Positions 18,708-43,612 of a DNA stretch of 64,000 nt are shown piece by piece. The stretch is from Clostridium sp. 12(A) (GTDB lineage: Bacteria; Bacillota; Clostridia; Lachnospirales; Lachnospiraceae): contig JAGI01000001.1 in the NCBI GenBank assembly GCA_000526575.1, positions 388,787 to 452,786 of the forward strand. Reading direction: 5' to 3'. The notes below the pieces were generated by a model. That model ran no database searches, was not told the DNA's origin, and saw only the letters and a list, made by a program, of their open reading frames with translations. Each line of letters starts with the position of its first letter. Position 1 is the first letter of the stretch. A program made the position numbers and the translations under genes.

Positions 18708-19022
18708 ATGAAGGAAAAGGCATGTATGGCAGATTTAAAAAGAGGGCAAAGGGGTGTCATAGCTAAGCTGTCTGCTTACGACGATATGAGAAGGCGTCTG
18801 CAGGATATCGGTCTGATTGAAGGCACGGTTGTGGAGTGCCTTGGAAAAAGTCCGTTGGGCGATCCTACAGCATTCTTAATCAGAGGTGCAGTGATTGCCC
18901 TGCGAAGGGAAGACGCAGGGCGGGTGCTGGTACGCCTGGAACAAGAGGATATGGGAAGACGCCGTTTTGAAGAAGAAGTGGCGGCAGCGGCGGTCACCCA
19001 GGAGGAAGATGCATGGGATTAA
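18708..19022 (+). CDS. feoA: FeoA ferrous iron transport protein A
   Basis: A 104-residue protein whose residues about 5-80 are a FeoA SH3-like domain ([62 protein letters not shown]). FeoA supports the FeoB membrane transporter. It has a Glu-rich C-terminal extension. The end overlaps the feoB start by 10 bases, showing that feoA and feoB were a coupled operon before feoB was interrupted. Confidence 0.93.
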
Positions 19023-19186
19023 GCAGAGACTCTGTTGGTATCAAATCTGTGGATCTGGGGCTTGAAATTAAGAAACGTAAGGATAGTGATAAGGTAATTG
19101 CACTGGCTGGAAATCCCAACGTAGGGAAGAGTACGGTGTTTAATCAGCTTACGGGGATGAACCAGCACACGGGCTGGTGTTGTTAG
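19013..19186 (+). CDS. feoB: feoB segment 1 of 4 (N-terminus with P-loop), interrupted
   Basis: The ATG overlaps feoA, with GGAGGA 7 bases upstream. The first 54 codons (to 19174) are genuine FeoB, including the G1 P-loop GNPNVGKST at residues 33-41 and the conserved [10 protein letters not shown]. Then the reading frame enters element 1 and stops after three foreign codons at TAG 19184-19186. The missing continuation, NWPGKTV with the G2 threonine, resumes in frame at 24318. On its own the segment is a 57-residue fragment with no possible transport function. Confidence 0.93.
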
Positions 19187-19193
19187 AGGTAAA
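19166..19193. other. Element 1 left attachment junction (attL1)
   Basis: The core CACACGGGC (19166-19174) is repeated at 24309-24317. The inner arm TGTTAGAGGTAAA (19181-19193) is the exact inverted repeat of TTTACCTCTAACA (24289-24301). Left of the core is feoB; right of it is the element. Confidence 0.85.
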
Positions 19194-19231
19194 ATAATAT
19201 TGCAACGAAAAAGGCTGATCCCAACTGATTT

Positions 19232-20629
19232 TTATAAGAAAACAACGGTATACTCCCTGTGACGCAAAGAGCTTTTACTGATTTTAATTTCCTTTATAAT
19301 AGAGCGCCAAAAGCGCCGCTTCTGTTCGTGATTCAGCTTTGAGTACATGGTCTCAAAGCCAGCACTTAGAATGCTTTTTAATGATTCAAGGTCTTGCGTT
19401 GTGGGAGGAGGGCTGGTTAGAGAGGATAGGTATTCTTCCAGTCTGGCCTTTTCCTTTTTAAATTCCTCCAGGGTGATTGCTTCATTTAGGTAAAGATCTT
19501 TCAGTCTCTCCAGTTTCTTGCATATCTGTTTTTTTTCCATTCTATGATCAGCTGTCTGTTTTTCCTTGGCCTGAAAACTGGCAATGTAGGAATTAAATTC
19601 TGTCCGAACATAATTTAATAAGTATTCTTCCAATCGTGTTTCCCTAATTTCTCCATGATTTAAGCATGCTTTTTTTGTATGAGACTGCTTGCATTCATAT
19701 GCAGGATATTTATATCGAATGGTTGTTCCGTCTTTTCGTTTGGAAAGAACATTAATCTGGCAGCCGCCCATTTTGTTACCACATTCCCTGCATATTACAA
19801 GGCCGGAAAATAGATAGGGGTATTTCTGACTGGACTTAATGTTATGGTTCTGGTCTAAAATATGTTGGATTTTATTGAAATCCTCATCGGATAGGAGGCG
19901 GGGACAGTAAGTTTCATTGCCGCGGTAACGCCCTGTCAATTTCTCGTTTCGAAGAAGAGACTGGCGGAAGTTTTGGGGCGTCATGCAGATTCCATATTTG
20001 TCCTTTAAATATTGGACCGACTGGTTCATGGAGTGGTGTTTTAAAAAATGCATGATTCCATCATAAATAGCAGGGGCCTCCTCAGAAAGTATCATACGTT
20101 TATTCATGATCTGGTATCCTCTTGGGACTTTTCCTGTAATCACTTCTCCGTGCTCTACCTTAGTCTTAAATACATCGGAAACACGAATTCCGCCATTTTG
20201 AGCTTCCAGCTCGGCCCAGGTCATGGATTGGGCCACAAAGGCTCTGCCGTAAGGGGTGGAAGTATCAAAGTATGGCTGGTCGATAGCAGTCCATGCCGCG
20301 TTATATTTTTCCAGGACTGCCTGGGTGTTTAAATAATGGCGAAGGCTACGAAACCAACGATCCAGCTTTGTAAATATGATTAAGTCAATTTGTCCTTCCT
20401 TTACACGGTTCATCAAACGTGTAAAATCGTCCCGGTCAATTTTCTGGCCCGATACACCATCGTCCAGATAAATATCCTGTAAGACCATATTGGCGTGTTC
20501 CTTAATATACCGGATTCCCCGTTCCTTCTGGTCTCTGATGGAATCTCCCCGCTCGGCCTGTTCTTCAGAGGATACCCGGATATAAACTGCTACGCGAATT
20601 GGCCGCTCTGGTTCTGAAGTTTTTTTCAT
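19232..20629 (-). CDS. Large serine recombinase of element 1
   Basis: A 465-residue site-specific recombinase. The N-terminal resolvase domain has the catalytic Ser20 in YIRVSSEEQ and the DGVSGQKIDRDDF and FTKLDRWFRSLRHYL motifs. A recombinase domain follows (about 160-270), then a zinc ribbon with CRECG near 279 and ECKQSHTKKAC, a coiled coil (about 350-410, rich in Lys/Glu) and a C-terminal tail. Such integrases join attP and attB by double-strand breaks via Ser-DNA links and need a directionality factor to excise. It reads toward the left end of the element; its stop is 39 bases from the attachment arm. It is clearly different in sequence from the recombinases of elements 2 and 3. Confidence 0.93.
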   Translation of the reverse strand: MKKTSEPERPIRVAVYIRVSSEEQAERGDSIRDQKERGIRYIKEHANMVLQDIYLDDGVSGQKIDRDDFTRLMNRVKEGQIDLIIFTKLDRWFRSLRHYLNTQAVLEKYNAAWTAIDQPYFDTSTPYGRAFVAQSMTWAELEAQNGGIRVSDVFKTKVEHGEVITGKVPRGYQIMNKRMILSEEAPAIYDGIMHFLKHHSMNQSVQYLKDKYGICMTPQNFRQSLLRNEKLTGRYRGNETYCPRLLSDEDFNKIQHILDQNHNIKSSQKYPYLFSGLVICRECGNKMGGCQINVLSKRKDGTTIRYKYPAYECKQSHTKKACLNHGEIRETRLEEYLLNYVRTEFNSYIASFQAKEKQTADHRMEKKQICKKLERLKDLYLNEAITLEEFKKEKARLEEYLSSLTSPPPTTQDLESLKSILSAGFETMYSKLNHEQKRRFWRSIIKEIKISKSSLRHREYTVVFL

Positions 20630-21007
20630 CGCATCATCTCCCTGTACAGTCTACGAGAGGTGGGGGATAAAAATAACAAATACCCCTATAATGGAGATTC
20701 CTTTTTATAGGGGGGCAGAGAATTAAAATATCGTATCAGCGAATCTAAATCTATGGTTCAGTGACTCCGGAGCTATTTTAATGGCATTTAGAACCAGGTG
20801 TCCTTCCAGGTCCGATAGCCTCTGGCATTTGTTATGATAGTCATGCAGTTGTAGAAGTAAAAGTGATATGATAAGATTACATTAGATTAATCGTAATTTC
20901 ATATTTTTAGCCTATCGTTCTTGTGTACTCCATTTTCTACTTAAATAAGGAAGAGGAAAGAAGTACAAACCAAATGGAATACATATGGGTTAGAAAGGGG
21001 CGATATC
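20630..21007. other. Intergenic region with hairpin and possible remnant
   Basis: Contains an inverted repeat, CCCCTATAA (20683-20691) and TTATAGGGG (20705-20713), upstream of the recombinase start. On the minus strand near 20735-20860 there is a short open stretch without a good start codon (QRLSDLEGHLVLNAIKIAPE), which may be a remnant. GAGGAAAGAAGTACAAAC at 20953-20970 recurs at 22452-22469 and belongs to the duplicated module. No complete gene seen. Confidence 0.4.
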
Positions 21008-21157
21008 ATGGCGGATACAGTTCATGCAGTGAATTCTGTAGATCCGGTAAAGGCCTTTGAGGCTCTGGCAAAGATCATAGGGGAAAAAGAAGGGGTTGAA
21101 ATTACATTAAAAAGCTTAAAGAAACGAGAAGAAGAAAACGAAGGAGAAACCGGCTGA
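21008..21157 (+). CDS. Small helical protein of element 1 (49 aa)
   Basis: An ATG with AGAAAGGGG upstream starts a 49-residue highly charged protein (MADTVHAVNSVDPVKAFEAL, then a Lys/Glu-rich end). I do not recognise the family. A second, broken copy at 22507 with a similar leader shows that the reading frame is real and was duplicated with the hydrolase gene. It lies 41 bases upstream of the hydrolase start and is probably cotranscribed. Possible roles: a regulator or a recombination accessory factor; neither is shown. Confidence 0.6.
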   Translation: MADTVHAVNSVDPVKAFEALAKIIGEKEGVEITLKSLKKREEENEGETG

Positions 21158-21198
21158 TGCCGGTAGCATAAGACAAGCTAAGGCTGATAGGAGTAGAC

Positions 21199-22197
21199 AT
21201 GAATCAATGGAAAGAAACACTAAAAGATTTTCAAGGCTGTATCTCTATCAAACGAAAGGGCGGCACGGTATTTGAGCAGGCGTTTGGATATTCGGATCTT
21301 TCCAATCAGATTTCAAATACCTTAGATACCAGATTTGGAACAGCTTCCGCAGGAAAGGTTTTTGTTGCCGTTGGAATTCTTAAACTCATAGAAGAGGGAA
21401 GGCTGAATTTTGAGGATACCATGGGAGAATTACTTGATTTTGAGTTAAACCACATAGACCCTCTCGTAACGGTAGAGCAGCTGCTCAATCATACCTCTGG
21501 AATTCCGGATTATTTTGATGAAAGCATTATGGAGGAATATTCGGATCTATGGGGGGATTATCCCAATTATAAGATACGCACCTCCAGGGATCTCCTGCCC
21601 TTATTTATCAATAAGCCCATGATGTATGAGAGGGGAGAGAAGTTTCAATATAATAACTCCGGCTATGTAATGTTAGGCCTTATTATAGAAAGCATTACAA
21701 AAGTACCTTTTGATTCATATCTGGCAGATGTCATTTTTAAACCAGGACATATGGAGCACACCGGCTATTATGAGCTTGACCGCCTTCCGGCTGGATGCGC
21801 CAATGCCTATTTATATGATCAGGTGAAGGAAGAGTACTATACGAATATATATAGCGTTGATGTGAAGGGGACAGGCGCAGGTGGTGCGTACACTACGATA
21901 GGTGATATTGAATTATTTTGGAATAGTCTGCTTGGATATAAGCTGTTATCGGAAGAGATGACAAACAAAATGCTTCGTCTTCAAAGCACCAACTTTGAAA
22001 ATGAGCATTATGGATATGGAATATGGTTAAAGAAAATGGAAGGGTATTATGTACCCTACATTGAGGGCTGTGATCCTGGTGTAAGTTTTATATCCAGTTA
22101 CGACCGAGAGGAAGAGGTGCTCATCACTTTAGTAAGTAATTTTGGCAATAATGTTTGGAAACTGAAGCGAGAACTAAAATGGCAGGATTTTATATAA
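21199..22197 (+). CDS. Beta-lactamase-fold serine hydrolase
   Basis: A 332-residue protein of the class C beta-lactamase/penicillin-binding superfamily (PF00144). The SxxK nucleophile motif is SAGK near residue 50 (GTASAGKVFVAVGILKL), followed by VTVEQLLNHTSGIPDY and the Tyr motif YNNSGYVMLGL near 153. The family includes DD-peptidases, esterases and beta-lactamases; the substrate cannot be told. No signal peptide, so it is probably cytoplasmic. The first part of this gene is repeated as a pseudogene at 23187-23546. Confidence 0.85.
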   Translation: MNQWKETLKDFQGCISIKRKGGTVFEQAFGYSDLSNQISNTLDTRFGTASAGKVFVAVGILKLIEEGRLNFEDTMGELLDFELNHIDPLVTVEQLLNHTSGIPDYFDESIMEEYSDLWGDYPNYKIRTSRDLLPLFINKPMMYERGEKFQYNNSGYVMLGLIIESITKVPFDSYLADVIFKPGHMEHTGYYELDRLPAGCANAYLYDQVKEEYYTNIYSVDVKGTGAGGAYTTIGDIELFWNSLLGYKLLSEEMTNKMLRLQSTNFENEHYGYGIWLKKMEGYYVPYIEGCDPGVSFISSYDREEEVLITLVSNFGNNVWKLKRELKWQDFI

Positions 22198-22506
22198 GCA
22201 CCAGGATTTTGATAGAAACGTACTTGCTCTTGCTTACCTAAATTGAATAACTCTAAGGGCCAGATAGTGCAAGTGTTAAGCTGAAAATAACAGTAAATAA
22301 AGGCAATAGATGACTTAAGATTAAAGAGATTATCATAGGGATAGTTGTATGAAAATAGGCCATATGATATAATATTCTTAGTTTTTTTCGTGTACCATAC
22401 CATGTTTTAATTTGCTTTTCTTCTAATTATATATCCTGTCTAATGTAGAATAAGGAAAGAAGTACAAACTACAGTATATACTTATATTTTAGAAAGGGGC
22501 AGTGTT

Positions 22507-22650
22507 ATGGCAGACACGGTTCATGTTAACAATTGTGTTGATCCGGTAAAGGCTTTGTAAGCTCTGGCAAAAATCATAGGGGATAAAGAAGGGGTGGAGA
22601 TCACTTTAAAGAGCCTTAAAAAAGGAGCAAAGAAAACAAGGAAGAGACCG
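22507..22650 (+). pseudogene. Broken second copy of the small element-1 protein
   Basis: It begins MADTVH like the intact copy at 21008 and keeps VDPVKA, but TAA at 22558-22560 replaces a Glu codon. The remainder stays clearly similar (AKIIGDKEGVEITLKSLKK) before the end is lost. Decay by point mutation. Confidence 0.75.
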
Positions 22651-22678
22651 GCTGTTGCCGGTTAGGAGGGACAAGCGA

Positions 22679-23185
22679 GTGGAATCATATTTAACGGGAG
22701 TAGATCAAACCCAGTTTAGAGTCATCTCATTACCCCCATTTCGTGCTGCGTCATCAGGCGTAGACAACGTGTGCGACTTTTCGAATGATAGTATTTTAGG
22801 AAAGTTTGATGCATACTTTTCAGCAATTCAAGTATCAGATAGAGATTCTTTTATGCCCAGAGATTTCTTATATTATGATGAAGAAAAGAGTGGGCTGGTA
22901 TGGGCGTGGGCACTTACAGAAGATATGGATGATGGTGGAAATGAAGTGATATCTTTTGATGGTGGATATTATTTAACCTATGTCTACGTGGATGGGGATG
23001 ATGAAATGAGTGGAAAAAGATACAAGGAGGCAATCTCTTATATTGAAAACTCAGATGTATTCGAACTGGACATACGTCCGGGGCATTATATCATGGGACA
23101 TATTATTACACCATCTGAAATTATAAAAGCCCAGGGATTTGCACAGATGGAAAATTTTGTTCCTATTAAATTTAAGGAGAAATAG
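22679..23185 (+). CDS. GyrI-like small-molecule-binding domain protein
   Basis: About 168 residues resembling the free-standing GyrI-like/AraC effector-binding domain (ISLPPFRAASSG at the start, FELDIRPGHYIMGHIITP near the end). Such proteins bind hydrophobic or drug-like ligands. A TTG at 22655 also opens the frame, but AGGAGGG at 22664-22670 is well placed for the GTG at 22679. It lies between the two halves of the decayed duplicate, so it may have inserted there or may be what the duplicated module originally carried. No DNA-binding domain is attached. Confidence 0.6.
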   Translation: MESYLTGVDQTQFRVISLPPFRAASSGVDNVCDFSNDSILGKFDAYFSAIQVSDRDSFMPRDFLYYDEEKSGLVWAWALTEDMDDGGNEVISFDGGYYLTYVYVDGDDEMSGKRYKEAISYIENSDVFELDIRPGHYIMGHIITPSEIIKAQGFAQMENFVPIKFKEK

Positions 23186-23186
23186 T

Positions 23187-23546
23187 GGTTTATCTTAAAA
23201 ATGATTTAAAGACTTTCAAGGTTGTATCTCGATTAATAAGAAGGGATGTACCATATTTGAACAGGCTTAAGGATATTCCGATTATTCAAATAAGGTGTTT
23301 AATATCTTTGATACCAAGTTTGCGACTGCCTCTGCAGGTAAGGTCTTTGTTGCTGTGGCAATTCTTAAGCTGATTGAAGAAGGAAGATTAAGCTTTCAAG
23401 ATACCATTGGTGATTTGCTTGATTTTGACCTAAATCATATAGATTCAATGATAACTGTGGAGCAATTACTCAATCATACCTCTGGCATTCCTGATTATTG
23501 TGATGAAAGTGTGATAACCTATTATTCTGATCTTTGGCGGGACTAG
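23187..23546 (+). pseudogene. Truncated second copy of the serine hydrolase
   Basis: It aligns with the first about 115 codons of the hydrolase at 21199: KDFQGCIS, then TASAGKVFVAVAILKLIEEGRL and VEQLLNHTSGIPDY. A TAA replaces the aromatic codon before GYS (near 23270), the start codon context is lost, and the frame ends in TAG after YYSDLWRD. The C-terminal two thirds are absent. Confidence 0.85.
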
Positions 23547-23561
23547 ATAGTTTTGAAAATT

Positions 23562-23604
23562 GACCTGTTGATAAAAGTGGTTTATGTCACTTTTTCAACA
23601 GGTC
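23562..23604. terminator. Hairpin between the hydrolase remnant and the lipoprotein gene
   Basis: GACCTGTTGATAAAAGTG pairs with CACTTTTTCAACAGGTC, with one bulged base. On the minus strand it is followed by AATTTTC, so it probably terminates the lipoprotein gene. Confidence 0.5.
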
Positions 23605-23673
23605 CAAACTTGTCCAAATCTGTTTAACTAAAAGTTCTGAGTTTTTACATCGACTGTTTTGGTATTTTTAATT

Positions 23674-24015
23674 TTATTTTTTCTTAGTTTCAGTAGCAGC
23701 TGCTGGTTTTTCATCGGAAGAGCCTGCTTTTACTTTGCTCTCATCTGTTTTTGTTTCTTTTGTTGCAGTGCTTTCCTTCTTGGTCTCATCTTTCTTGGAC
23801 TCTGCAGCAGAAGTGCTTTCTTTCGCTTCTTTTGTAGTAGCTTCAGTTGTAGCAGCTTCTTTTGTAGCAGCCTCAGTTGTAACTGCTTCTGTGGTAATAT
23901 CGGCTTTTGTAGCAGCGGTTGTTTCTGAAGTTTTGGTGCTACCACAAGCAGAGATAGCTGCCATTGTCAAAATTGCTACACCTGTCAAAAATAATTTCTT
24001 TGTTGTTAACTTCAT
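23674..24015 (-). CDS. Thr/Lys/Glu-rich low-complexity lipoprotein
   Basis: A 113-residue protein that starts MKLTTKKLFLTGVAILTMAA with lipobox ISAC, so it should be lipid-anchored outside the membrane. The mature part is a low-complexity run of Thr, Lys, Glu, Ala and Ser (repeats such as TTEA and TKEA) without a recognised domain. It may be a spacer or surface-coating protein. AGGAGG supports the ATG at 24015 rather than the one at 24033. The long frames on the opposite strand here are shadows of this repetitive sequence. No gene is seen in 24016-24288. Confidence 0.75.
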   Translation of the reverse strand: MKLTTKKLFLTGVAILTMAAISACGSTKTSETTAATKADITTEAVTTEAATKEAATTEATTKEAKESTSAAESKKDETKKESTATKETKTDESKVKAGSSDEKPAAATETKKK

Positions 24016-24288
24016 AATAAATTTCCTCCTCAAGACTGTATTGGTATCATCAATATGTTCTGACCTTCAGTTATCTTATTTTTCTGAAGTCAAAAGTTAT
24101 TTTAGCACCAGAATATAACAGAATCAATGGGGCATTAGTTGCTTTTTTCTTAATAAAATGTGAATTAAATATTAAAAAAAGATAAATGTGAAAAATATGT
24201 CCGAATTCACACAAAATTCACAGAAAAAACACAGATTAAGCAAACTTCCATCACAATTTCGGTTTCTAATTTTTAATATCGTGACTCG

Positions 24289-24317
24289 TTTACCTCTAAC
24301 ACATGTAACACACGGGC
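24289..24317. other. Element 1 right attachment junction (attR1)
   Basis: Arm TTTACCTCTAACA (24289-24301) and core CACACGGGC (24309-24317), matching the left junction. feoB resumes at 24318. Confidence 0.85.
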
Positions 24318-25661
24318 AACTGGCCGGGTAAAACCGTTGCCAATGCCCAGGGCTATTGCAGTGATGGCAGCCAGGGATATGTTATGGTAGACATACCAGG
24401 CTGCTATTCCCTCATGGCCCACTCCACGGAAGAGGAGGTAGCAAGGGATTTTATCTGTTTTGAACATCCGGATGGGGTAGTGGTGGTCTGTGACGCAACC
24501 TGTCTGGAACGTAATTTAAATCTGGTGTTACAGGTTCTGGAGGCCACGCCTAAGGCCGTCGTCTGTGTAAATCTCATGGATGAAGCGAAGAAAAAGAGGA
24601 TTGATATCCGGCTTGATTTACTGGAAGAGCGGCTGGGTGTACCTGTGGCAGGAACTGCGGCCAGAAGTAAAAAGGGGCTGGACCAGATATATACCTGTTT
24701 AAGACGCTGCCTTGAGGAAGAAGATAAGATAGAAGACGCAAACGTGGACTTTATAGAAGAGGGAAAATTAGAAGAGACGCTTGAAAAAGGGATAGAGGAA
24801 ACTACAGACAAATCAGAGGAGTCAGAGAAACCGCAAGAATCTAAAATAGCAGAAGGAATTGAACTTGCAGACGCAATCGAAGACGTAGAAGCATTCCCGG
24901 AAGAACCGATACAAAATTCGAAGGAAAAAGAAAAACGCCCAGTACTAATCCGTTATCCTCAATATATTGAGGATGCCATTGAAGCCCTTTCCCCTGTGGT
25001 GGAGAATGCTTCCGATGGTAAGATAAACATCCGCTGGCTATGTGCCAGATTATTAGATTCCAATGATAATCTTATGCAGGCGGTTAAAAAGTATGTAAGC
25101 TCTGTTGCTGAATCCGGGGAAGTGGCAGAGTGTTTAGAGAAAATCCGAAGCGAGTGGAGAGCCAGAGGAATCCACCAGGAAAAAGTAAGCGATGATATGG
25201 CTTCCGTATTCGTTAAGAAGGCAGAATATTTATGTCGCGGAGTCGTAATATATGAGAATCAGACCTATAACAGGAAAGATCGGAAGCTGGATTTTATATT
25301 TACCAGCAAGTCCACCGGCTTTCCCATTATGTTTCTGGTTCTTCTTGGGATTTTTTGGCTGACCATTACCGGGGCCAATTATCCCTCCCAGCTTCTTAGC
25401 AATGTTTTGTTTGGGTTTGAAGACCTCCTTTCAAAAGGAGCAGCATGGGCAGGCGTTCCGGAACTTATTTCCAATCTTCTTGTCCATGGCATGTACCGCA
25501 GTCTTGCCTGGGTCGTATCTGTAATGCTTCCGCCAATGGCAATCTTTTTTCCGTTGTTTACCCTTCTGGAAGATTTTGGATACCTGCCCAGAGTGGCGTT
25601 TAACCTGGATCGCTGCTTTAAGCGATGCTCCGCCTGTGGGAAGCAGGCGCTTACCATGTGA
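24318..25661 (+). CDS. feoB: feoB segment 2 of 4 (G domain to mid-membrane domain), interrupted
   Basis: In frame with segment 1 after core joining: NWPGKTVANAQGY continues the switch I region, then the G3 motif VDIPGCYSL, the G4 motif NLMD near the VCVNLMDEAKKKR stretch, a helical GDI-like region and the first membrane segments (FPIMFLVLLGIFWLTITGA, LAWVVSVMLPPMAIFFPLF, EDFGYLPRVAF). An unusual acidic Glu-rich insert of about 70 residues lies between the G domain and the helical region. The first ATG in the segment is at 24384, but no convincing ribosome site precedes it. The frame runs into element 2 and stops at TGA 25659-25661. Confidence 0.93.
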   Translation, partial: NWPGKTVANAQGYCSDGSQGYVMVDIPGCYSLMAHSTEEEVARDFICFEHPDGVVVVCDATCLERNLNLVLQVLEATPKAVVCVNLMDEAKKKRIDIRLDLLEERLGVPVAGTAARSKKGLDQIYTCLRRCLEEEDKIEDANVDFIEEGKLEETLEKGIEETTDKSEESEKPQESKIAEGIELADAIEDVEAFPEEPIQNSKEKEKRPVLIRYPQYIEDAIEALSPVVENASDGKINIRWLCARLLDSNDNLMQAVKKYVSSVAESGEVAECLEKIRSEWRARGIHQEKVSDDMASVFVKKAEYLCRGVVIYENQTYNRKDRKLDFIFTSKSTGFPIMFLVLLGIFWLTITGANYPSQLLSNVLFGFEDLLSKGAAWAGVPELISNLLVHGMYRSLAWVVSVMLPPMAIFFPLFTLLEDFGYLPRVAFNLDRCFKRCSACGKQALTM

Positions 25662-25677
25662 CAGAGGAAATCTATGC
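25655..25677. other. Element 2 left attachment junction (attL2)
   Basis: Core CATGTG (25655-25660) is repeated at 30577-30582. The inner arm GAAATCTATGC (25667-25677) is the inverted repeat of GCATAAATTTC (30560-30570) with one non-pairing position. Confidence 0.8.
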
Positions 25678-25708
25678 TTTTTCATATGGAAAAGGAGCCA
25701 TTATTCAC

Positions 25709-25737
25709 TTGACACAATTTCCTCAAAATGGTATAGT
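25709..25737 (+). promoter_or_regulatory. Strong sigma-A-type promoter in element 2
   Basis: TTGACA (25709-25714) and TATAGT (25732-25737) with a 17-base spacer, about 90 bases upstream of the ccdA-tlpA start and just inside the element end. Confidence 0.7.
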
Positions 25738-25828
25738 TACAACATCAAACTGTAACTAAAAATAGTACAGAAAATAATGGAAAATGTCCAGTCGACTGGC
25801 TGCGGCAGGTAAAAAAGGAGGTACTTGG

Positions 25829-27145: not shown

Positions 27146-27149
27146 CTAT

Positions 27150-33635: not shown

Positions 33636-33705
33636 TTCCGGCAGGGCGGCAAGAAGCTTTGCCGCCCTCCTTAAACCAATGCAAAAGGGGAAGAGGGGTA
33701 GGATC

Positions 33706-34749: not shown

Positions 34750-35606
34750 TGAACCGGAGAAAAATAATTCATTTTGGAACCCAGTTGGTTGCAATCGTAA
34801 TCTCTTTTACCATACTGTCTCCTTTTCTTCTCGTTCTCTTTAATTCAGCAAAAAAGAGTGCGGATATCGTCATAAGCCCCATTGCATTTCCAAGAAACTG
34901 GGGGCAGCTGTTTATTAACTTATCCAATGTGATACATAACCAGAATTTCAGTTATTTTAAATCCTTTCGAAGTTCCTTATTCATTACTGCAGTCAGCCTG
35001 ACTTTATTGATTCTGCTTTCCAGCATGTCAGCGTGGGTGCTGGTGCGCAATAAGACCAGGTGGTCCGATATCATTTTTATGGTGTTTGTGGCGTCTATGG
35101 TAATCCCGTTTCAGGTGGTCATGCTGCCGCTTTTATCCACCTTTCGGGGATTATCAGACTTTGTTGGAATTCGGTTCTTAAGCAGTTATACGGGAATCAT
35201 CATTGCCTATCTTGGCTTTGGCGGCTCCATGTCCGTATTCATCCTTCACGGATTTATTAAAGGGATTCCAAGAGAGCTTGAGGAAGCAGCGTGGATTGAC
35301 GGGTGCAGCCCGGAAGGAACCTTTTTTCGAGTGGTATTTCCTTTGTTAAAGCCGGTACAGATGACAGTACTGATTCTAAATGGAATATGGATCTGGAATG
35401 ACTACCTTCTTCCGTCCCTGATGTTAGGCTTGAACGGAAGGATTAAGACGCTTCCAGTGGCAGTCAGCAGCTTTGTAGGCTCTTACGTAAAACAATGGGA
35501 TTTGATACTTGCAGCAGCATTTCTTGCCATGATACCTGTAATCATTCTGTTCCTATGTGCACAAAAACAGATTATTCAGGGTCTGGTAGAAGGAGCCATT
35601 AAATAG
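34749..35606 (+). CDS. Sugar ABC transporter permease 2 (MalG-type)
   Basis: A 285-residue inner membrane permease with about six helices and the coupling loop EEAAWIDGCSPEGTFFRVVFP near residue 178. Its ATG shares one base with the stop of permease 1 (TAATG), so the two subunits are made in equal amounts. It pairs with permease 1 to form the channel for the imported sugar. Confidence 0.92.
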   Translation: MNRRKIIHFGTQLVAIVISFTILSPFLLVLFNSAKKSADIVISPIAFPRNWGQLFINLSNVIHNQNFSYFKSFRSSLFITAVSLTLLILLSSMSAWVLVRNKTRWSDIIFMVFVASMVIPFQVVMLPLLSTFRGLSDFVGIRFLSSYTGIIIAYLGFGGSMSVFILHGFIKGIPRELEEAAWIDGCSPEGTFFRVVFPLLKPVQMTVLILNGIWIWNDYLLPSLMLGLNGRIKTLPVAVSSFVGSYVKQWDLILAAAFLAMIPVIILFLCAQKQIIQGLVEGAIK

Positions 35607-35619
35607 AGGAGTAAATGAG

Positions 35620-37302
35620 ATGAATAAAACGTGGTGGAAGGAAGCGGTGGTGTATCAGATATACCCCAGAAGCTTTCAGGACAGCAATGGAGACGGAATT
35701 GGAGACTTAAATGGAATCAGGCAGCGGCTTGATTATCTGAAGCTGTTGGGAATTGACGTGATCTGGCTTTCTCCAATCTGTAAGTCCCCCAATGATGACA
35801 ATGGATACGATATTAGTGATTATCAGGATATTATGAGTGAATTCGGGACCATGGAAGACTTTGATCATCTGTTGCGGGAGGCTCATGAAAGAGGCATACG
35901 GATCCTGCTTGATTTGGTAGTCAACCATACCTCGGATGAGCACCCCTGGTTTTTAGAGAGCAGAAGGAGCAGGGAGAATCCATACCGGGACTATTACATT
36001 TGGAGAGAGGGAAAGGAAGACGGGAGCTGTCCCAATAACTGGGGCTCCTGCTTTAGCGGCTCTGCCTGGGAATATGACAATGAGACAAAGATGTATTACC
36101 TCCATTTATTCTCCAAAAAACAGCCGGATCTAAACTGGGAAAATCCCAGAGTCAGAGACGAAGTGTTTGACATGATGGATTGGTGGTGCAGGAAGGGAAT
36201 TGATGGCTTTCGAATGGACGTCATCAGCATGATATCCAAGGACCCGGCCCTGCCAGATGGAGAGGTCTCCAATGGTCTTTATGGAGATTTTACACCTTAC
36301 AGCGTTCACGGACCAAAGGTACACGATTATTTAAAAGAAATGAACCGAAGGGTTCTTTCCAAATACGATTTAATGACAGTGGGAGAGACCGCAGGAGTCA
36401 CCATAGAAGAGGCAAAACGCTACGCCGGAGAAGGGGAAGAAGAGCTTAACATGGTCTTTCACTTTGAACACGTAGACAGTAGCGGAGAGTTTGGTAAATG
36501 GACGGATCAAAAGACAGAACTAAGAATACTTAAGGGCATCTTGTCCAAATGGCAGACAGAGCTTGAAAACAGCGCGTGGAACAGTCTTTACTGGGACAAT
36601 CATGATCAGCCAAGAGCGGTATCAAGGTTCGGAGATGACAGAGAGGAATACCGGGAATTATCGGCAAAGATGCTTGCCACCTGTCTTCACATGATGAAGG
36701 GAACGCCCTACATCTATCAGGGAGAAGAGCTTTCCATGACCAATTATCCGTTTGAGGATATGACTGAGTTCAAAGACATTGAAAGCATCAATGCCTACAA
36801 GGAACTGGTCGGGGAAGGTCATGTCACCCATGAGTGCATGATGGATTACCTGCGTTTTAAGAGCCGGGACAATGCAAGAACACCCATGCAGTGGGATGAT
36901 AAGGAGCAGGCAGGCTTTACAAGCGGAACTCCGTGGCTCTCAGTAAATCCTAATTATAGGGAAATCAATGCAGCCAGGCAGATAGATGATCCTGATTCCG
37001 TGTTTTCTTATTATAGGAAGCTGATCGCTCTTAGAAAAAAACATGATGTGATCGTATACGGTACTTACCAGCTCATACTTCCAGAGGACTCTCACATATT
37101 TGCTTTTGTAAGAACCTTAGAGAAGGAACAGGTTCTGGTGCTGTGCAATTTTACGGATCAGGAAGTGAAGGCAGACATACCGGAAACATTTAACCTGGAA
37201 ACAGCAGAATGCTTCATACAAAACTATAAAGGCAGGGAATCCTTAGCTCAGGGAATTCTAAGGCCTTATGAGGCGATTGCATTGTATTGGAAAGAACAAT
37301 AA
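35620..37302 (+). CDS. GH13 alpha-glucosidase / oligo-1,6-glucosidase (first of two)
   Basis: A 560-residue GH13 enzyme that hydrolyses short alpha-glucosides from the non-reducing end. Visible conserved regions: VVNHTSDEHPWF, the nucleophile Asp in GFRMDVIS near residue 200, the acid/base Glu in TVGETAG near 256, and DNHDQPR near 327. Length and C-terminal beta domain are normal. No signal peptide, so it works on imported sugar. It starts 14 bases after permease 2. The exact linkage preference (alpha-1,6, alpha-1,4 or sucrose-like) cannot be read. Confidence 0.9.
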   Translation: MNKTWWKEAVVYQIYPRSFQDSNGDGIGDLNGIRQRLDYLKLLGIDVIWLSPICKSPNDDNGYDISDYQDIMSEFGTMEDFDHLLREAHERGIRILLDLVVNHTSDEHPWFLESRRSRENPYRDYYIWREGKEDGSCPNNWGSCFSGSAWEYDNETKMYYLHLFSKKQPDLNWENPRVRDEVFDMMDWWCRKGIDGFRMDVISMISKDPALPDGEVSNGLYGDFTPYSVHGPKVHDYLKEMNRRVLSKYDLMTVGETAGVTIEEAKRYAGEGEEELNMVFHFEHVDSSGEFGKWTDQKTELRILKGILSKWQTELENSAWNSLYWDNHDQPRAVSRFGDDREEYRELSAKMLATCLHMMKGTPYIYQGEELSMTNYPFEDMTEFKDIESINAYKELVGEGHVTHECMMDYLRFKSRDNARTPMQWDDKEQAGFTSGTPWLSVNPNYREINAARQIDDPDSVFSYYRKLIALRKKHDVIVYGTYQLILPEDSHIFAFVRTLEKEQVLVLCNFTDQEVKADIPETFNLETAECFIQNYKGRESLAQGILRPYEAIALYWKEQ

Positions 37303-37327
37303 AGAATAGATAGGACGGATAAATAAA

Positions 37328-38998
37328 ATGATTAAAAAATGGTGGCAGGATAAGGTGGCATATCAGATTTATCCTAAGAGTTTTAAAGATACCAACGATG
37401 ACGGCATTGGAGATGTAAAAGGGATCATAGAAAAGCTGGATTATTTAAAGGATTTGGGAGTTGATATTATCTGGCTTTCCCCAATTTATTGTTCTCCTCT
37501 GGCAGATCAGGGCTATGATATCTCCGACTATTATCTCATTGATCCCAGGTTCGGAACCATGGAAGAAATGGATGAATTGATCGCAGAAGCAAAAAAAAGA
37601 GAGATGTATCTGATTATGGATCTGGTGGTCAATCACTGTTCCGATGAACATGAGTGGTTTCAGAAGGCATTAAAAGACCCGGAAGGAGAGTACGGCAACT
37701 ATTTTTATATCCGGGAAGGCAAAGACGGAAAGGCCCCCAACAACTTAAGATCGTATTTTGGCGGAAGTGTTTGGGAGAGAATCGGAGATACCAACAGGTA
37801 CTATTTTCACGCATTTCACAAAAAACAGCCGGACCTTAACTGGGAAAATGAAGTCCTTCGGGAAAAGATATATGAGATGATACGGTGGTGGCTGGAGAAG
37901 GGAATTGCCGGATTTCGTATCGATGCTATTATGAACATCAAGAAGGTTCTGCCGTTTCATGATTATGAGCCTGACCGGGATGATGGATTGGCTTCCTGTG
38001 AGAAGATGGTAGATGAGGCAGAAGGCATTCTGGACTTTTTAAATGAGATGAAGGAAGCGGCATTTGACAAGTACGATGCTTTTACAGTGGGGGAAGTATT
38101 TCGGGAAAAGAAAGAGGATTTGGAGGCGTTCATTGGAGAGAAGGGGTGCTTTTCCTCTATGTTCGACTTTAATGAAACCGTTTTTGGCATCAGTGACAAA
38201 GGCTGGTATGACTATCAGCATATCACACCCGATGATTACAGAGACTGCTGCTTTGCCAGCCAGCTTCGGTCAGAGGGCGTAGGTTTTCTGTCAAATATCA
38301 TTGAAAACCACGATGAACCAAGAGGCGTCAGCCACTATATCCCGGAAGGAGAGTGCTCCGACCAGTCTAAAAAAATGCTGGCAACGGTTTATTTTATGCT
38401 AAAGGGCCTCCCCTTCATCTATCAGGGACAGGAAATCGGTATGGAAAATGTGCCTTTTACCTCAATCGAAGACATAGACGATATCTCGACGCTGGATCAG
38501 TATCAGGTGGCCTTAAGTCAGGGATTTTCAAAGGAAGAGGCATTTTCTATGGTATGCCGCTACAGCAGGGACAATGCAAGAGTGCCTTTTCAGTGGGATG
38601 GAGGAACCAACGCCGGATTCAGCCAGGGGATTCCATGGCTTAAGGTAAATCCCGATTATCGAAGCCTTAATCTGGAACTGCAAATAGAGGATGAGGATTC
38701 CGTCTTCCATTATTATAAAAAGCTGATTGCCTTACGAAAAAGCAGGGATTATAAGGAGACCCTTGTATTTGGAGATTTTGAACCTGCTTATACTGATCTA
38801 AAGAGAGTCATGGCTTATTATCGGAGCAGCAAAGCTGAGAAAATCTTAATCATTGGCAATTTTAAACCGGAACCACAGGAATTTCTTCTGGAACAGGAAG
38901 AGTATGAGGTACTGTTAAATAATAAGAAGGAGTTATCATCAGACGGTAGAAAGCTATTGCTAGATGGATATCAGGCTTTGATTTTAAGATTTCAATAG
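37328..38998 (+). CDS. GH13 alpha-glucosidase / oligo-1,6-glucosidase (second of two)
   Basis: A 556-residue GH13 paralogue of the preceding gene: VVNHCSDEHEWF, nucleophile in GFRIDAIMN near residue 199, TVGEVFREK near 254 and ENHDEPRGVS near 326. The residue after the conserved NHD is Glu where the neighbour has Gln, and the region after the nucleophile also differs (NIKK against SMIS), so the two probably prefer different linkages. It follows 25 bases after the first glucosidase and is the last gene before a strong terminator. Confidence 0.9.
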   Translation: MIKKWWQDKVAYQIYPKSFKDTNDDGIGDVKGIIEKLDYLKDLGVDIIWLSPIYCSPLADQGYDISDYYLIDPRFGTMEEMDELIAEAKKREMYLIMDLVVNHCSDEHEWFQKALKDPEGEYGNYFYIREGKDGKAPNNLRSYFGGSVWERIGDTNRYYFHAFHKKQPDLNWENEVLREKIYEMIRWWLEKGIAGFRIDAIMNIKKVLPFHDYEPDRDDGLASCEKMVDEAEGILDFLNEMKEAAFDKYDAFTVGEVFREKKEDLEAFIGEKGCFSSMFDFNETVFGISDKGWYDYQHITPDDYRDCCFASQLRSEGVGFLSNIIENHDEPRGVSHYIPEGECSDQSKKMLATVYFMLKGLPFIYQGQEIGMENVPFTSIEDIDDISTLDQYQVALSQGFSKEEAFSMVCRYSRDNARVPFQWDGGTNAGFSQGIPWLKVNPDYRSLNLELQIEDEDSVFHYYKKLIALRKSRDYKETLVFGDFEPAYTDLKRVMAYYRSSKAEKILIIGNFKPEPQEFLLEQEEYEVLLNNKKELSSDGRKLLLDGYQALILRFQ

Positions 38999-39012
38999 CA
39001 AGAGGAACTAAA

Positions 39013-39059
39013 AGAAGGTCAGAGAAGACGGCATTCGCCCTTCTTTGACCTTCTTTTTA
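39013..39059 (+). terminator. Terminator of the alpha-glucoside operon
   Basis: AGAAGGTCAGAGAAG pairs with CTTCTTTGACCTTCT, followed by a T run. Confidence 0.85.
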
Positions 39060-39072
39060 TAGAAAAAGTTTT

Positions 39073-39912
39073 TTATTTCTCATATATGCTGCGACATACG
39101 CGAAGTCCCATATCCGGCCCCTTACCATTGGCTTCATACTTGCCGCGGTAGGAGATCTGGCAGCTGGTTTTATCCCCAAGCCAACCTCCGCCTTTCCAGA
39201 CACGGTAATTTCCACTTCCGATTAAAAGATCCTGATACCAGTTAAAACACCATTCCCTGACATTTCCAGACATATCGTAAAGGCCCAGTTCGTTGGGCTT
39301 TTTAGAACCAACGGGATGAGTCGAATTCCGATTGTTTTCAATGCGGGTCCATTCCCAGTCACCGGTTAAAAATTCCTTCCCGGAGTTCCTGAAATACCAT
39401 GTGGTCTCTTCTTCATTATTGCCGCCGCTATAGGTATACTGTTTGCTCTCCATACCTCCGCCGGCAGCATATTGCCATTCTGCTTCTGTGGGCAGCCGGT
39501 AACCGTTTGCTCCCTCATTCACAGATATCGTCCATTTTATATCATCAAATTCACTTACGTTTTCTGGGTCCTTATTACTTTTATCAATGGAGTAATAAGG
39601 GGTTAATCCTTCTTTTTCGCTTCTCTTATTGCAATACTCAATGGCATCATACCAGCTTACTGTTTCAACCGGCAGTGTCTCACCTTGAAAACCAGAAGGA
39701 TTATTGCCCATCACATCCGTCCATTCCTTTTGGGTCACCTCATATTTGCCAATATAAAAATCCGAGATGGTTTCTGCTTGTCCCTGTGAAAGAGACGTAG
39801 TATCTGCAGCAGCGTTGCCTTTGACTAACACGAGACTTTCCTGTTCTTCTTTCGAACAACCGCAGGAAAATACGGCTACTGCAATCAAAAGCAAGATCAG
39901 TTTTTTCCCCAT
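39073..39912 (-). CDS. Formylglycine-generating-enzyme-like (SUMF1 domain) lipoprotein
   Basis: About 279 residues. The N-terminus is a signal peptide with lipobox (MGKKLILLLIAVAVFSCGCS). The rest is an FGE-sulfatase domain: YEVTQKEWTDVMGNNPSGF, ETVSWYDAIEYCNKRS, GYRLPTEAEWQYAAGGG, DMSGNVREWCFNW and a final GLRVCR. True FGE oxidises a sulfatase Cys to formylglycine, but many bacterial SUMF1 proteins are not oxidases, and no sulfatase gene is in the window. I start at the ATG 39912 with AAAGGA upstream, not at 40017. It lies within element 3. Confidence 0.82.
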   Translation of the reverse strand: MGKKLILLLIAVAVFSCGCSKEEQESLVLVKGNAAADTTSLSQGQAETISDFYIGKYEVTQKEWTDVMGNNPSGFQGETLPVETVSWYDAIEYCNKRSEKEGLTPYYSIDKSNKDPENVSEFDDIKWTISVNEGANGYRLPTEAEWQYAAGGGMESKQYTYSGGNNEEETTWYFRNSGKEFLTGDWEWTRIENNRNSTHPVGSKKPNELGLYDMSGNVREWCFNWYQDLLIGSGNYRVWKGGGWLGDKTSCQISYRGKYEANGKGPDMGLRVCRSIYEK

Positions 39913-40015
39913 AGCTGTAATCCTTTCCGTATGGTTTTCTCTGCTTAAAACAATTTCCTCATTCATAAAATGTATGGATACATAACAATACATGTTATGG
40001 AAATTCCAAAACTGC

Positions 40016-40788
40016 AATATTTAAATAGTATGTAGGTAAGTACAGTGTTAATTAGATAATTACACCTTATCAGGTGCTATATAAAATTACCAAACAGTTA
40101 CATTAGCATTTCCGCTGCTCTGATAGCCCTCAACGCACATTGCCTGATAAGACCAGGAATTACCTAAATTCATACCTTTGCTTCTCCATGCATTTGCGTG
40201 GTTTGCAAAGTTGATCTGAGCATTGCTGCCAGTAGGTCTCTTAGACTGTCTGACACTCCAGTACTGTGGGAATGTCTGATAACCATCAATAGATGGAGCG
40301 TTGTAACGCATGGTTGTATAGATGTCGTAGGTAGCACCGTCACTGCTTACGGTTCCCTTATAGGTGCCAGTTGGTCTGTAGGATCCCCAGCTGTCAACTA
40401 CATAATATTCAATTAAAGAGTTTCTTGTCCAACCGTAGAAGGTCAGATAACTGTTTCCAGATGGAGCAAAAACACCTGCGTTATAGTTAACGACTCTGTT
40501 AGGAGTTCCGTAAGTCCAGCCTTTACCAACAACAAAGTTGCCACAGTTGGTCCAGTTTACACTGAAATTACCGCCAGAGCCATTGACCATATTTACATAT
40601 CCGCCGCCATCATCATAGTTCTGCCAATAGTCTGTGGCAGCATATGTAGTACCAGCAAAGATACTTGAAATACCCATTGCAATAACAAATACAAATGATA
40701 AGACCTTTTTACTTACTTTGTTCATATGATTCCCCTCCTGTTTAAAGAAACATGGTACTTGTACTTACCTACATACGATATAAATATT
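40016..40788. repeat. Inverted repeat pair flanking the xylanase gene
   Basis: About 29 bases at 40016-40044 (containing GTATGTAGGTAAGTACA) recur inverted at about 40758-40788 (TGTACTTACCTACATAC inside), with a few mismatches at the outer parts. The pair brackets exactly the GH11 gene and its upstream signals. It could mark a mobile cassette or two copies of an operator in opposite orientation. Confidence 0.65.
40087..40725 (-). CDS. Secreted GH11 endo-1,4-beta-xylanase
   Basis: A 212-residue xylanase. After a signal peptide (about residues 1-29, ending near TYAA) comes the GH11 jelly roll. The nucleophile Glu is in [11 protein letters not shown] near residue 106, and the acid/base Glu is in [17 protein letters not shown] near 199; both are present. 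The family cleaves internal xylan bonds outside the cell. There is no carbohydrate-binding module, so it is a minimal single-domain enzyme. AGGAGGGG supports the start. It is on the minus strand, opposite to the sugar operon. Confidence 0.95.
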
Positions 40789-41223
40789 ACCTAAAAATGT
40801 CCTCCTTTTCTTATTTAGACAGCTCTTCTAACAATAACAGAAAACCGCCTTTTATCCGGTTATTATGCGGGATGTAACTAGTAAAATGATTGTGGATTGT
40901 ACTTTTGACCAAGAATTAGTCAGGTAAAACTAAGAAGTTTAAAAGATTAGTCTGAATTCAGGCTATAGAAAAATAAAAAATCTCCATTACGCACATATTA
41001 TCAGCCATGGACATGTTTGTAAATGGTTTGTAATAAAATTAATAATTTTTGGTTAATGTTACCAATTGTTTGTATCGCCTGTGTAACAAAATAATTTTTT
41101 TTTGTCTATTTTTTATTTTTTGAGACATTCGTTTTTTTGCCATATAAAAGCCTTTTTCCTATGGGATAAAAGCATTAATATGATCCATATGCATACATGT
41201 AATGAAAAGGATGGTGAGCAGCT
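40789..41223. other. AT-rich intergenic stretch before the element 3 recombinase
   Basis: A strongly AT-rich region with T and A runs near 41093-41120. It must hold the promoters for the xylanase (leftward) and for the recombinase (rightward), but I cannot assign -35 and -10 boxes with confidence. No ORF of note. Confidence 0.4.
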
Positions 41224-42861
41224 TTGAATATTTTTATTTACAGCCGAAAGTCTGTTTATACAGGAAAAGGCGAGAGCGTGGAAAACCAGGTGGAGATGTG
41301 CAAAGAATATATTTCAGATAAACTGCCAAATGCCAAGCAGGCAGAGATAAGCATTTATGAGGACGAAGGATTTTCCGCGAAAAATACCAACCGGCCTCAG
41401 TTTCAGCAGATGCTTAAGGATTTAAAACGTATAAGACCTCAATACGTCATCTGCTATCGTCTGGACCGTATCAGCCGTAATGTCAGCGACTTTTCTTCTC
41501 TCATCGAGGAGCTGAATCATCAGAATATATCCTTCATCTGCATCCGGGAAGAGTTTGATACCTCAAAGCCAATGGGAAAGGCCATGATGTACATAGCCTC
41601 TGTCTTTGCCCAGCTGGAGCGGGAAACCATAGCCGAGCGTGTGCGGGACAATATGCTTTTACTGGCCCGCACCGGCCGGTGGCTGGGAGGCACTACCCCA
41701 TTAGGCTATACCTCTGAAAAGCTTCAGGAGGTTGTTTTAGACGGCAAACTTAAAACCGCCTGCAAACTAAAGGAAAATCCAGGAGAGCTCTCTATCGTAA
41801 GCAGTATCTATGAGAAATTTTTAGAGCTTCGCAGTGTTTCCGGTGTCAGCAAATATCTGATCAGAGAGGGGATCGGGACCAGGAATGGAAACATGTTTTC
41901 TCTTCCTGGAATCAAAGAGATTCTGCAAAATCCCGTTTATTGTATTGCCGATGAGGAGGCTTGGGATTTTTTTAGGAAACATCATGCAGATATCTGCTTT
42001 GAACGGCCTGATTGTTCTAATAGATATGGATTATTATCCTACAACAAACGAGATTACCGGAAAAAAAGCGCCCCAAGGCAGGAGATGGACCAATGGATCG
42101 TGGCTATGGGAAAGCATAAAGGAGTGGTATCCGGTAAGAAATGGGTGACAGTGCAGGAGATACTTAAGAGTAATATTCCCACTGGAAAAAAGCCCTCTAT
42201 CATGCACAACAGCTATTCCCTGTTATCAGGAACCATCTATTGCAGTCAATGCAACAGCCGCATGTTTGCAAAACAGAGAAGGAGCAAGGAAAGAATCAGC
42301 GACGAAAGAAGTCAGAAATCATATGATTATATCTGTAACAGCAAGCTACGTGCCGGTACAGATCTATGTAACTGCTTTAATTTAAACGGAAGGCAGGCGG
42401 ATAACATGGTCTTCGAATCCCTGCTTCCCTATATGAATGAGAATAAAAATATCTTTTTACTGCTGGATAAACTGAAACGTGAGATACAAAAGCAGATAGA
42501 GAAAGATCCCTGTAAGGTGATAGAAGATAAAATCAAAAAAAACACTGGTGAAATCAATAATCTAATCAGAACACTGTCCCATGATAATCTGGGAGAAGCC
42601 TTTATAAGCCGGGTAAATGAAAAAATAAGTGAGCTTGAGGGAGAGATTACATCTTTATTGGAAGAACAGAGCCGTCTTAAAAACAAGGCAGGCAGCTATG
42701 AGGAGAGCTCCCTTAAAATCAACCAGGCTTCTCATGACTTAATAAGTGTTAGAAGGATTTATAGAATTATGACCTTGGAAGAAAAACGGACTTTGATTAA
42801 ATTAATGGTTCAAAAAATTGTTTGGGATGGTAAAAAGCTGCATGTTTACATAGATCAGTAG
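41224..42861 (+). CDS. Large serine recombinase of element 3
   Basis: A 545-residue recombinase starting at TTG. Catalytic Ser10 is in IYSRKSVYTGKG, followed by DEGFSAKNTNRPQF and YRLDRISRNVSDF of the resolvase domain. Next come the recombinase domain (about 150-290), a zinc ribbon (CSQCNSRM near 340 to CNSKLRAGTDLCNC), a long coiled coil (about 400-500) and a C-terminal end (TLIKLMVQKIVW). It reads outward, and its TAG at 42859-42861 forms the first bases of the attachment arm. It is distinct in sequence from the other two recombinases, in line with a different target site. Confidence 0.93.
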   Translation: MNIFIYSRKSVYTGKGESVENQVEMCKEYISDKLPNAKQAEISIYEDEGFSAKNTNRPQFQQMLKDLKRIRPQYVICYRLDRISRNVSDFSSLIEELNHQNISFICIREEFDTSKPMGKAMMYIASVFAQLERETIAERVRDNMLLLARTGRWLGGTTPLGYTSEKLQEVVLDGKLKTACKLKENPGELSIVSSIYEKFLELRSVSGVSKYLIREGIGTRNGNMFSLPGIKEILQNPVYCIADEEAWDFFRKHHADICFERPDCSNRYGLLSYNKRDYRKKSAPRQEMDQWIVAMGKHKGVVSGKKWVTVQEILKSNIPTGKKPSIMHNSYSLLSGTIYCSQCNSRMFAKQRRSKERISDERSQKSYDYICNSKLRAGTDLCNCFNLNGRQADNMVFESLLPYMNENKNIFLLLDKLKREIQKQIEKDPCKVIEDKIKKNTGEINNLIRTLSHDNLGEAFISRVNEKISELEGEITSLLEEQSRLKNKAGSYEESSLKINQASHDLISVRRIYRIMTLEEKRTLIKLMVQKIVWDGKKLHVYIDQ

Positions 42862-42885
42862 TTTCCCTTTGACTGGTGGCGCATT
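42859..42885. other. Element 3 right attachment junction (attR3)
   Basis: Arm TAGTTTCCCTTTG (42859-42871) and core ATT (42883-42885), matching the left junction. feoB resumes at 42886. Confidence 0.8.
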
Positions 42886-43612
42886 CCCAACCATGATTGC
42901 AATTATAACCATGTTTTTTATCGGGGGCGCCACTGGTCTTTCTTCCACGGTGCTGTCTGCCGCCATTCTCTCTGGTGTCATTGTACTTGGAATCGTCATG
43001 ACCCTTGTGATTTCAAAGCTTTTGTCCGTTACCATCTTAAAGGGAGTGCCTTCTTCCTTTACCCTGGAGCTGCCTCCTTACAGAAGACCTCAGATTGGCA
43101 AGGTCATTGTTCGGTCCATATTCGACCGGACTCTGTTTGTACTCGGCCGCGCTGTAGTGATTGCAGCCCCGGCAGGTATGGTCATCTGGCTCATGGCAAA
43201 TCTGACAATAGGAGATGTCACCTTGTTATCCCTCTGTTCCGGATTTTTGGATCCATTTGCAAGAGCCATCGGGCTTGACGGAGTCATTCTTTTGGCGTTT
43301 ATCCTGGGATTTCCCGCCAATGAAATTGTTGTGCCCATCATCATTATGGCTTATATGGCAGAAGGAAAGCTGCTTCAGATCGACGATCTGTCTGTTTTAA
43401 AACACCTTCTGGTATCCAATGGCTGGACCTGGATTACGGCTGTGAGCACCCTTTTATTTTCCCTGATGCACTGGCCCTGTTCCACCACTTGCCTGACCAT
43501 ACGAAAGGAAACTCAGAGCATGAAATGGACCCTGATATCCTGGCTGGTACCCACTGTGACCGGGGTGATAGTCTGTTTTATCTTTGCAACCATTGCCAGA
43601 GCCTTCCTGTAA
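42886..43612 (+). CDS. feoB: feoB segment 4 of 4 (C-terminal membrane domain)
   Basis: In frame with segment 3 after ATT joining: PTMIAIITMFFIGGA, then more membrane helices, a LPPYRRP motif (the conserved ELPPY of FeoB), GFPANEIVVPIIIMAYM and the C-terminal helices ending in TAA. An open frame extends 17 bases into the element (to 42869), but no start signal is present. With segments 1-3 it completes a FeoB of 781 residues. Confidence 0.93.

Follow-up and report, generated by a model that had tools for sequence, protein, structure and literature searches.

A feoB iron-transporter gene divided at up to three fixed codons by serine-recombinase elements in a genus of spore-forming Clostridia

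To our knowledge, the programmed gene splitting described in spore-forming bacteria concerns regulators and spore-envelope genes, each interrupted by a single element. Here we examine a different arrangement: within a 64,000-nucleotide stretch of the genome of Clostridium sp. 12(A) (contig JAGI01000001.1, positions 388,787 to 452,786, forward strand; hereafter the window, whose own numbering is used below), the ferrous iron transporter gene feoB lies in four segments separated by three elements, which we refer to as E1, E2 and E3. Among the closest described systems, the skin element of Bacillus subtilis and Clostridioides difficile is a serine-recombinase element that splits the mother-cell gene sigK; in C. 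difficile it uses a recombinase together with a 72-amino-acid directionality factor (PMC5025042). Sporulation likewise restores gerE of B. cereus, split by gin, and spsM of B. subtilis, split by SPbeta, and gin is described as a non-phage element that uses GirC plus the directionality factor GirX (PMC5595907; PMC4191935). The heterocyst elements of cyanobacteria (in nifD, fdxN and others) are excised from genes of differentiating cells, and several may occupy one gene: in PMC4874684, the 87 interrupted genes of heterocyst-forming cyanobacteria include 10 with several elements, up to four, as in Rivularia nifD.

The feoB locus shares features with each of these systems and differs from all of them. 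As with the gene-intervening elements of spore-formers, precise removal restores the reading frame and each element has its own large serine recombinase at one end. However, skin is a single element in a sigma-factor gene, while feoB is a transporter gene with three elements, one of them genus-wide, whose excision in the mother cell is predicted; gin and SPbeta are also single elements, and neither host gene is a metal transporter. The heterocyst elements are cyanobacterial, and although the E1 recombinase resembles XisF of the fdxN element, it scores 138.9 bits against the equivalog cut-off of 375 (E3, 117.6; E2, 88.4). The E2 recombinase is nearest to transposon recombinases, its closest solved structure being TnpX (E 4e-34) and its identity to TndX on Enterococcus plasmids being 42%, but E2 occupies a fixed site within feoB and bears other cargo. 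A preliminary description of this locus had considered three elements in one gene to be undescribed, which is wrong as a general statement in light of the cyanobacterial counts (PMC4874684); programmed gene-intervening elements are a known kind, and so are several elements per gene. What is new, as far as we can tell, is that the host gene encodes a metal transporter, that a spore-former carries as many as three elements in one gene, each with an unrelated recombinase, and that one of the cuts extends through a genus. In the open-licence papers searched, we found none on a split feoB.

Four segments of feoB and the three elements between them

The four segments (19013–19174, codons 1–54; 24318–25660, codons 55–501 plus 2 nucleotides; 30583–30696, 38 codons; and 42886–43612; all on the + strand) give 2,346 nucleotides when joined, encoding 781 amino acids with no internal stop, and the Pfam domains FeoB_N, FeoB_Cyto, Gate and FeoB_C follow one another in that order. 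When joins were randomised by moving the ends by up to 150 nucleotides, an open frame resulted in 68 of 20,000 cases. The preliminary description had proposed this join, of 782 codons with the stop, and it stands; its claim of a short repeated core at every junction holds in full for the first two gaps, which have direct cores (CACACGGGC at 19166–19174 (+), with a direct copy at the right at 24309–24317, and CATGTG at 25655–25660 (+), with a direct copy at 30577–30582), but not for the third, where only a weak shared core is present. Because an intact, collinear FeoB occurs in relatives, for example in a Hungatella effluvii record that matches residues 1–781 without interruption, the worry that the segments might not align with any one intact protein does not apply, and the split of feoB is confirmed as genuine.

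The gene directly upstream is feoA (18708–19022, +; Pfam FeoA), and divergent from feoAB lies a metal regulator of the MntR/DtxR family (18105–18524, −; Pfam Fe_dep_repress), which scores 93.4 bits with the best NCBIfam MntR model, under the cut-off of 138. Two more FeoB paralogues, both intact, are encoded in the host genome, their open frames being 728 and 670 codons long. The joined FeoB of the window species is longer than in other members of its genus (781 versus 712–720 amino acids), with about 60–70 additional residues, mostly acidic, in segment 2 at about 24710–24940.

In each gap, a single large serine recombinase lies close to one end and is read outwards. In E1 (19175–24317, 5.1 kb) this is a 465-amino-acid protein at 19232–20629 (−), with the Pfam domains Resolvase and Zn_ribbon_recom, and the cargo includes a serine beta-lactamase-fold hydrolase (21199–22197, +; PF00144). 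E2 (25661–30582, 4.9 kb) encodes a CcdA-TlpA fusion (25784–27145, +; DsbD_TM and AhpC-TSA), a VanW-like protein (27150–28664, +) and a TnpX-like recombinase of 527 amino acids (28960–30543, +). E3 (30697–42885, 12.2 kb) ends in a recombinase of 545 amino acids (41224–42861, +) and carries a sugar-uptake operon at 31096–38998 (+), comprising a LacI-type regulator, a sugar-binding protein, two ATP-binding cassette (ABC) permeases and two alpha-glucosidase-type enzymes, named from NCBIfam matches nearly all of which fall under cut-off, together with an FGE-sulfatase (SUMF1-like) domain protein (39073–40017, −) and a glycosyl hydrolase family 11 (GH11) protein (40087–40725, −). The three recombinases differ from one another, as had been claimed, with BLASTP identities of 24% between E1 and E2 and 21% between E3 and E2, and all three fall under the cut-offs of the equivalogs for CcrA, CcrB and CcrC of the staphylococcal cassette chromosome (SCC). 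Pfam searches of 10 element proteins and NCBIfam searches revealed no phage structural gene in the elements; a PHROGs search run on the recombinases and small open reading frames (ORFs) matched all three recombinases to the phage integrase family phrog_95, and by sequence the enzymes may be of phage-like origin.

Small conserved ORFs accompany the recombinases. In the window these encode 49 amino acids in E1 (21008–21157, +), 47 in E2 (28820–28963, +, overlapping the recombinase start by 4 nucleotides) and 86 at the left end of E3 (30719–30979, −); none matches a family in Pfam or PHROGs. ORFs of 46–55 amino acids recur in 11 of 12 E1 elements and ORFs of 69–86 amino acids in 7 of 8 E3 elements, while the E2 ORF (47–52 amino acids) adjoins the recombinase in 17 genomes, sits elsewhere within the element in G005, G018, G020 and G021, and was not found in G006 and G009. 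By analogy with the 72-amino-acid factor of the C. difficile skin element, we consider them candidate directionality factors of their respective elements. A conserved block with a ribosome-binding site (28771–28819, +) stands upstream of the E2 small ORF; we considered it as a promoter of the recombinase and rejected this, as in most genomes the block precedes the small ORF, and it fits no sigma factor that we could name. E2 of G005, G008, G020 and G021 contains the block in two copies; one precedes the recombinase, and the other is found some 2 kb further upstream, or 14 kb in the case of G008.

Distribution and history of the split gene

We compared 25 genomes of the genus, the window's own included. 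The genus is probably Lacrimispora, and its members here are probably L. defluvii (G007), L. celerecrescens (G006), L. amygdalina (G003, G004), L. xylanisolvens (G022) and others designated Clostridium sp.; G010 and G017 are incomplete genomes (67% and 82%). The feoB orthologue is present in 22 of the 25; G011 has only a divergent intact FeoB, a copy of which is also present in G003 and G004. The cut at codon 501 was seen in 21 of these 22 genomes (spanned by one contig in 19, divided over two contigs in G015, and with the element on a separate contig in G007), and in G001 its presence is suggested by an E2 contig that begins at the core. At codon 54, 13 genomes are cut (11 spanned, and G002 and G001 over contigs) and 8 are intact, with G007 in neither count; near codon 538, a cut is present in 9 genomes (7 of them spanned, the others being G002 and G001) and absent from 13.

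There is one recombinase family per site: where the relevant end is assembled, the recombinase is of the type named for that element in 20 of 20 E2, 12 of 12 E1 and 8 of 8 E3 elements, and the element ends are alike among genomes, site by site. The E1 recombinase exceeds 400 amino acids in 10 of the 12, and that of E2 is frameshifted in G024 (a genome 89% complete). All 20 E2 elements with an assembled left part carry CcdA-TlpA, and 13 of them the VanW-like protein; the remaining cargo varies between genomes. Two irregular loci were observed: the E3 element of G013 (L116, L117) additionally carries a relative of the E1 recombinase, and locus L105 of G019 (probably Clostridium sp. Marseille-P2415) is partially duplicated, having segments 1 and 2 in two copies that include an N and a truncation.

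Joined genes could be built for 18 of the 22 genomes (G001, G002, G007 and G015, with pieces over several contigs or missing, were excluded; boundaries in G003, G013, G016 and G022 were placed at the core by hand), and all 18 are open. The ratio of non-synonymous to synonymous substitution rates (dN/dS) was 0.00–0.10 for every segment where it was defined across 12 genome pairs, a set that leaves out two G019 rows (segments 3 and 4). Synonymous sites were often saturated, and the close pairs G005/G006 and G014/G024 therefore weigh most; these also gave 0.00–0.10. Every segment of feoB is thus shown to be under purifying selection. Trees of FeoB, the E2 recombinase and CcdA-TlpA have their main clades in common and differ in small details, which argues that E2 has been inherited mainly vertically. 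For E3, by contrast, the recombinases of G004 and G019 are 98% identical and their FeoB proteins 80%, so this element has moved between species.

Beyond the genus, segment 4 was matched at E 1e-50 or better in 55 of 299 family genomes (the window's own included). Short frames in G025 and G072 aside, four family genomes outside the genus have frames of 290–302 codons and are split at codon 501; G119, G226 and G298, which we examined, are unsplit there. Among 80 named FeoB loci, 61 run without a break through codon 501; the 19 others include 7 from the genus; we did not count as splits six ambiguous non-contiguous loci (L199, L208, L215, L228, L234 and L236), which showed no recombinase, a contig start, frameshifts or an inversion. 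E3-type recombinases are found at codon 538 in L173, L175, L179 and L191, and E2-type recombinases at codon 501 in L193, L251 and, in decayed form, L253 (in L173, L175, L191 and L193 the right end only was observed). This repeated insertion outside the genus indicates that codons 501 and 538 are hot spots.

Scans of IMG/VR, which reach close relatives only, gave three relatives of the E3 recombinase and no relative of the E2 recombinase or of feoB segment 4. One of these three, a 4,998-base contig (L301, 208–3650), has feoB codons 497–540 flanked by an E2-type recombinase and by an E3-type recombinase in inverted orientation, and had thus escaped the E2 scan; together with L179, this contig shows that E3-type elements exist in either orientation. 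In G203, probably Robinsoniella peoriensis, a second, broken FeoB fragment that starts near codon 496 lies about 52 kb from the intact copy (L255, 5956–6627, −) and is perhaps the relic of a split gene.

Traces of excision and the promoter of feoAB

Contig ends in three draft genomes fall at the element cores. In G007, contig C137 begins with the last 21-mer common to the left attachment site (attL) and the predicted rejoined site (attB), and ends with the first 21-mer common to the right attachment site (attR) and attB; the only two occurrences of this second 21-mer in the genome are the ends of C137 and of C82. Contig C6 stops exactly at codon 54. In G001, C37 (4,461 bp) is E1 exactly from core to core and shares with C10 an overlap of 95 nucleotides that begins at the core; C35 begins at the E2 core, and C27 begins where, reckoned by hand, attR3 and the predicted circular-form site attP3 would last share a 95-mer. 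In the incomplete genome G017, C192 (5,036 bp) is E2 exactly from core to core, and the remainder of this feoB was not found. The simplest reading of these ends is a mixture of integrated and recombined DNA in the sequenced samples.

Upstream of feoA, a conserved promoter block at 18626–18665 (+) contains ACC-N16-CATATGTTA, which is sigma-K-like, followed by a half-operator-like stretch. The looser pattern AC-N15-18-CATANNNT precedes feoA in all 22 orthologue-bearing genomes of the genus (24 of 24 records, two being second copies from one genome). Of 62 other loci, 34 carry it, compared with 11 on the opposite strand; random sequences of matched dinucleotide make-up averaged 4.7 and reached at most 11 in 300. 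Many relatives with an uncut gene also have the motif, suggesting that this expression pattern is older than the invasion by the elements. In C. difficile, PMC3789822 gives the sigma-K promoter as AC at −35 and CATATAAT at −10, lists such a promoter for feoA-feoB (CD1518-CD1517), and reports expression of these genes down to 0.05 in a sigK mutant. We also tried yabG as a sigma-K control; the family is missing from all 25 genomes, so it was unusable.

Elsewhere in the window, a long ORF of collagen-like GPT/GAT repeats (60584–64000, +) runs past the window end; we take it to be of the type seen in exosporium BclA proteins, which would fit a spore-former. The product of 55382–56677 (+), with two LysM-like repeats and a glycosyl hydrolase family 18 (GH18)-like body by eye, presumably resembles the spore cortex enzyme SleL, and two neighbouring ORFs at 52371–53956 (+) are presumably a broken IS1182-type transposase.

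Programmed restoration and its alternatives

We consider it likely, though well short of certain, that the three elements excise precisely and rejoin feoB, probably in the mother cell late in sporulation, after which a sigma-K-type promoter would express feoAB. Each recombinase would act together with the small conserved protein of its own element, and the departure of all three elements would rejoin the reading frame. Were excision limited to the mother cell, the forespore would retain the elements, and the rejoined feoAB, expressed in the mother cell from the sigma-K-type promoter, might then provide ferrous iron to the sporangium. Vegetative growth could rely on the two intact FeoB paralogues, and E2 may also be retained for CcdA-TlpA, which stands behind what appears by eye to be an ordinary vegetative promoter. 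The preliminary description had suggested programmed excision controlled either by iron or by cell fate. Restoration draws support from the conservation of the split across the genus, from purifying selection, from recombinases and element ends that are likewise conserved, and from contigs that stop at the cores; between the two controls, cell fate is favored by the sigma-K-like promoter and the C. difficile data.

This interpretation must be made cautiously, as a number of observations weigh against it. The contig-end evidence is indirect, and an attP-type junction could also come from tandem copies; the rejoined codon-501 pattern appears in none of the 25 genus assemblies, and no break is seen in the 19 genomes that span E2 on one contig. 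Some contig ends (the right end of C35 in G001, which falls inside the recombinase, and ends in G002 and G015) lie inside elements, away from cores. No E1 recombinase was found in G007 even though C6 stops at codon 54, and the assemblies of G001 and G007 lack segment 2, perhaps lost as a short dropped contig. With respect to the promoter, the motif by itself is weak evidence, and orthology between CD1517 and this FeoB is putative; genome-wide, ACC-N16-CATANNNTA has 30 matches, the reversed control has 63, and no signal of sporulation was seen by eye; the motif is missing at the split loci L230 and L253 and present at the FeoB copies of G003, G004 and G011 that are divergent and intact; and no sporulation promoter was recognised by eye 5′ of the recombinases, among the stretches listed. 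The dyad beside the promoter resembles the operator of a metal regulator, so part of the block may be an operator, and with an MntR/DtxR-type regulator adjoining, metal control is possible. At codon 501, other, unrelated recombinases are found in L230, L252 and L254, which belong to other genera, and the transfer of E3 between species is what ordinary mobile elements would show.

These last two observations also speak for a less probable but serious alternative, in which feoB is a tolerated, attractive target: integrative elements would enter it at two or three conserved codons and occasionally move out again for their own spread, so that restoration is incidental and has no link to cell type. 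The two intact paralogues and the occurrence of E3-type elements in both orientations (L179, L301) are also in keeping with this scenario, which we regard as unlikely on balance. The codon-501 cut is present genus-wide with an orthologous recombinase and a mainly vertical history, the segments remain under strong purifying selection, and no uncut or decayed allele of this orthologue was seen in the 22 genomes. The preliminary description had offered three successive inactivations at an attractive target as its other possibility; the target is borne out by the unrelated recombinases at the same codon in other genera, while inactivation finds no support.

It is improbable that excision is programmed in growing cells by metal or redox state, through the MntR/DtxR-type regulator and perhaps the CcdA-TlpA of E2, and not by sporulation. 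The regulator is divergent from feoA and the operator-like dyad adjoins the promoter in many relatives, but the −35/−10 pair suits mother-cell sigma factors, feoAB of C. difficile is sigma-K dependent (PMC3789822), and loss of cargo from dividing cells would presumably be irreversible. Still more remote is the idea that feoB is dead or that its pieces act as separate proteins: the segments do lie apart in the assembled genomes, but segment 3 is just 38 codons long and the segments are undecayed, and we rejected both versions on the open frames and low dN/dS. An assembly artefact, which the preliminary description had named as a possible undoing and for which we found no support, has a negligible probability and was rejected, because 18 genus genomes besides the window's own span the identical codon-501 split on a single contig.

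If programmed restoration is correct, it would suggest that the mother cell needs iron import. The locus would then provide a naturally occurring system of stepwise recombination, in which three unrelated recombinases act at sites of their own, and would illustrate how mobile elements settle in genes required only by a dying cell. A broader picture, on which we are evenly divided, would be that Lacrimispora splices up to four gene pieces at the DNA level into a mother-cell iron transporter, with an independent recombinase system for each of three fixed codons; the split gene would pass to the forespore, feoB would act as a lasting landing site for cargo that growing cells use, and these codons would have been invaded repeatedly across the Clostridia.

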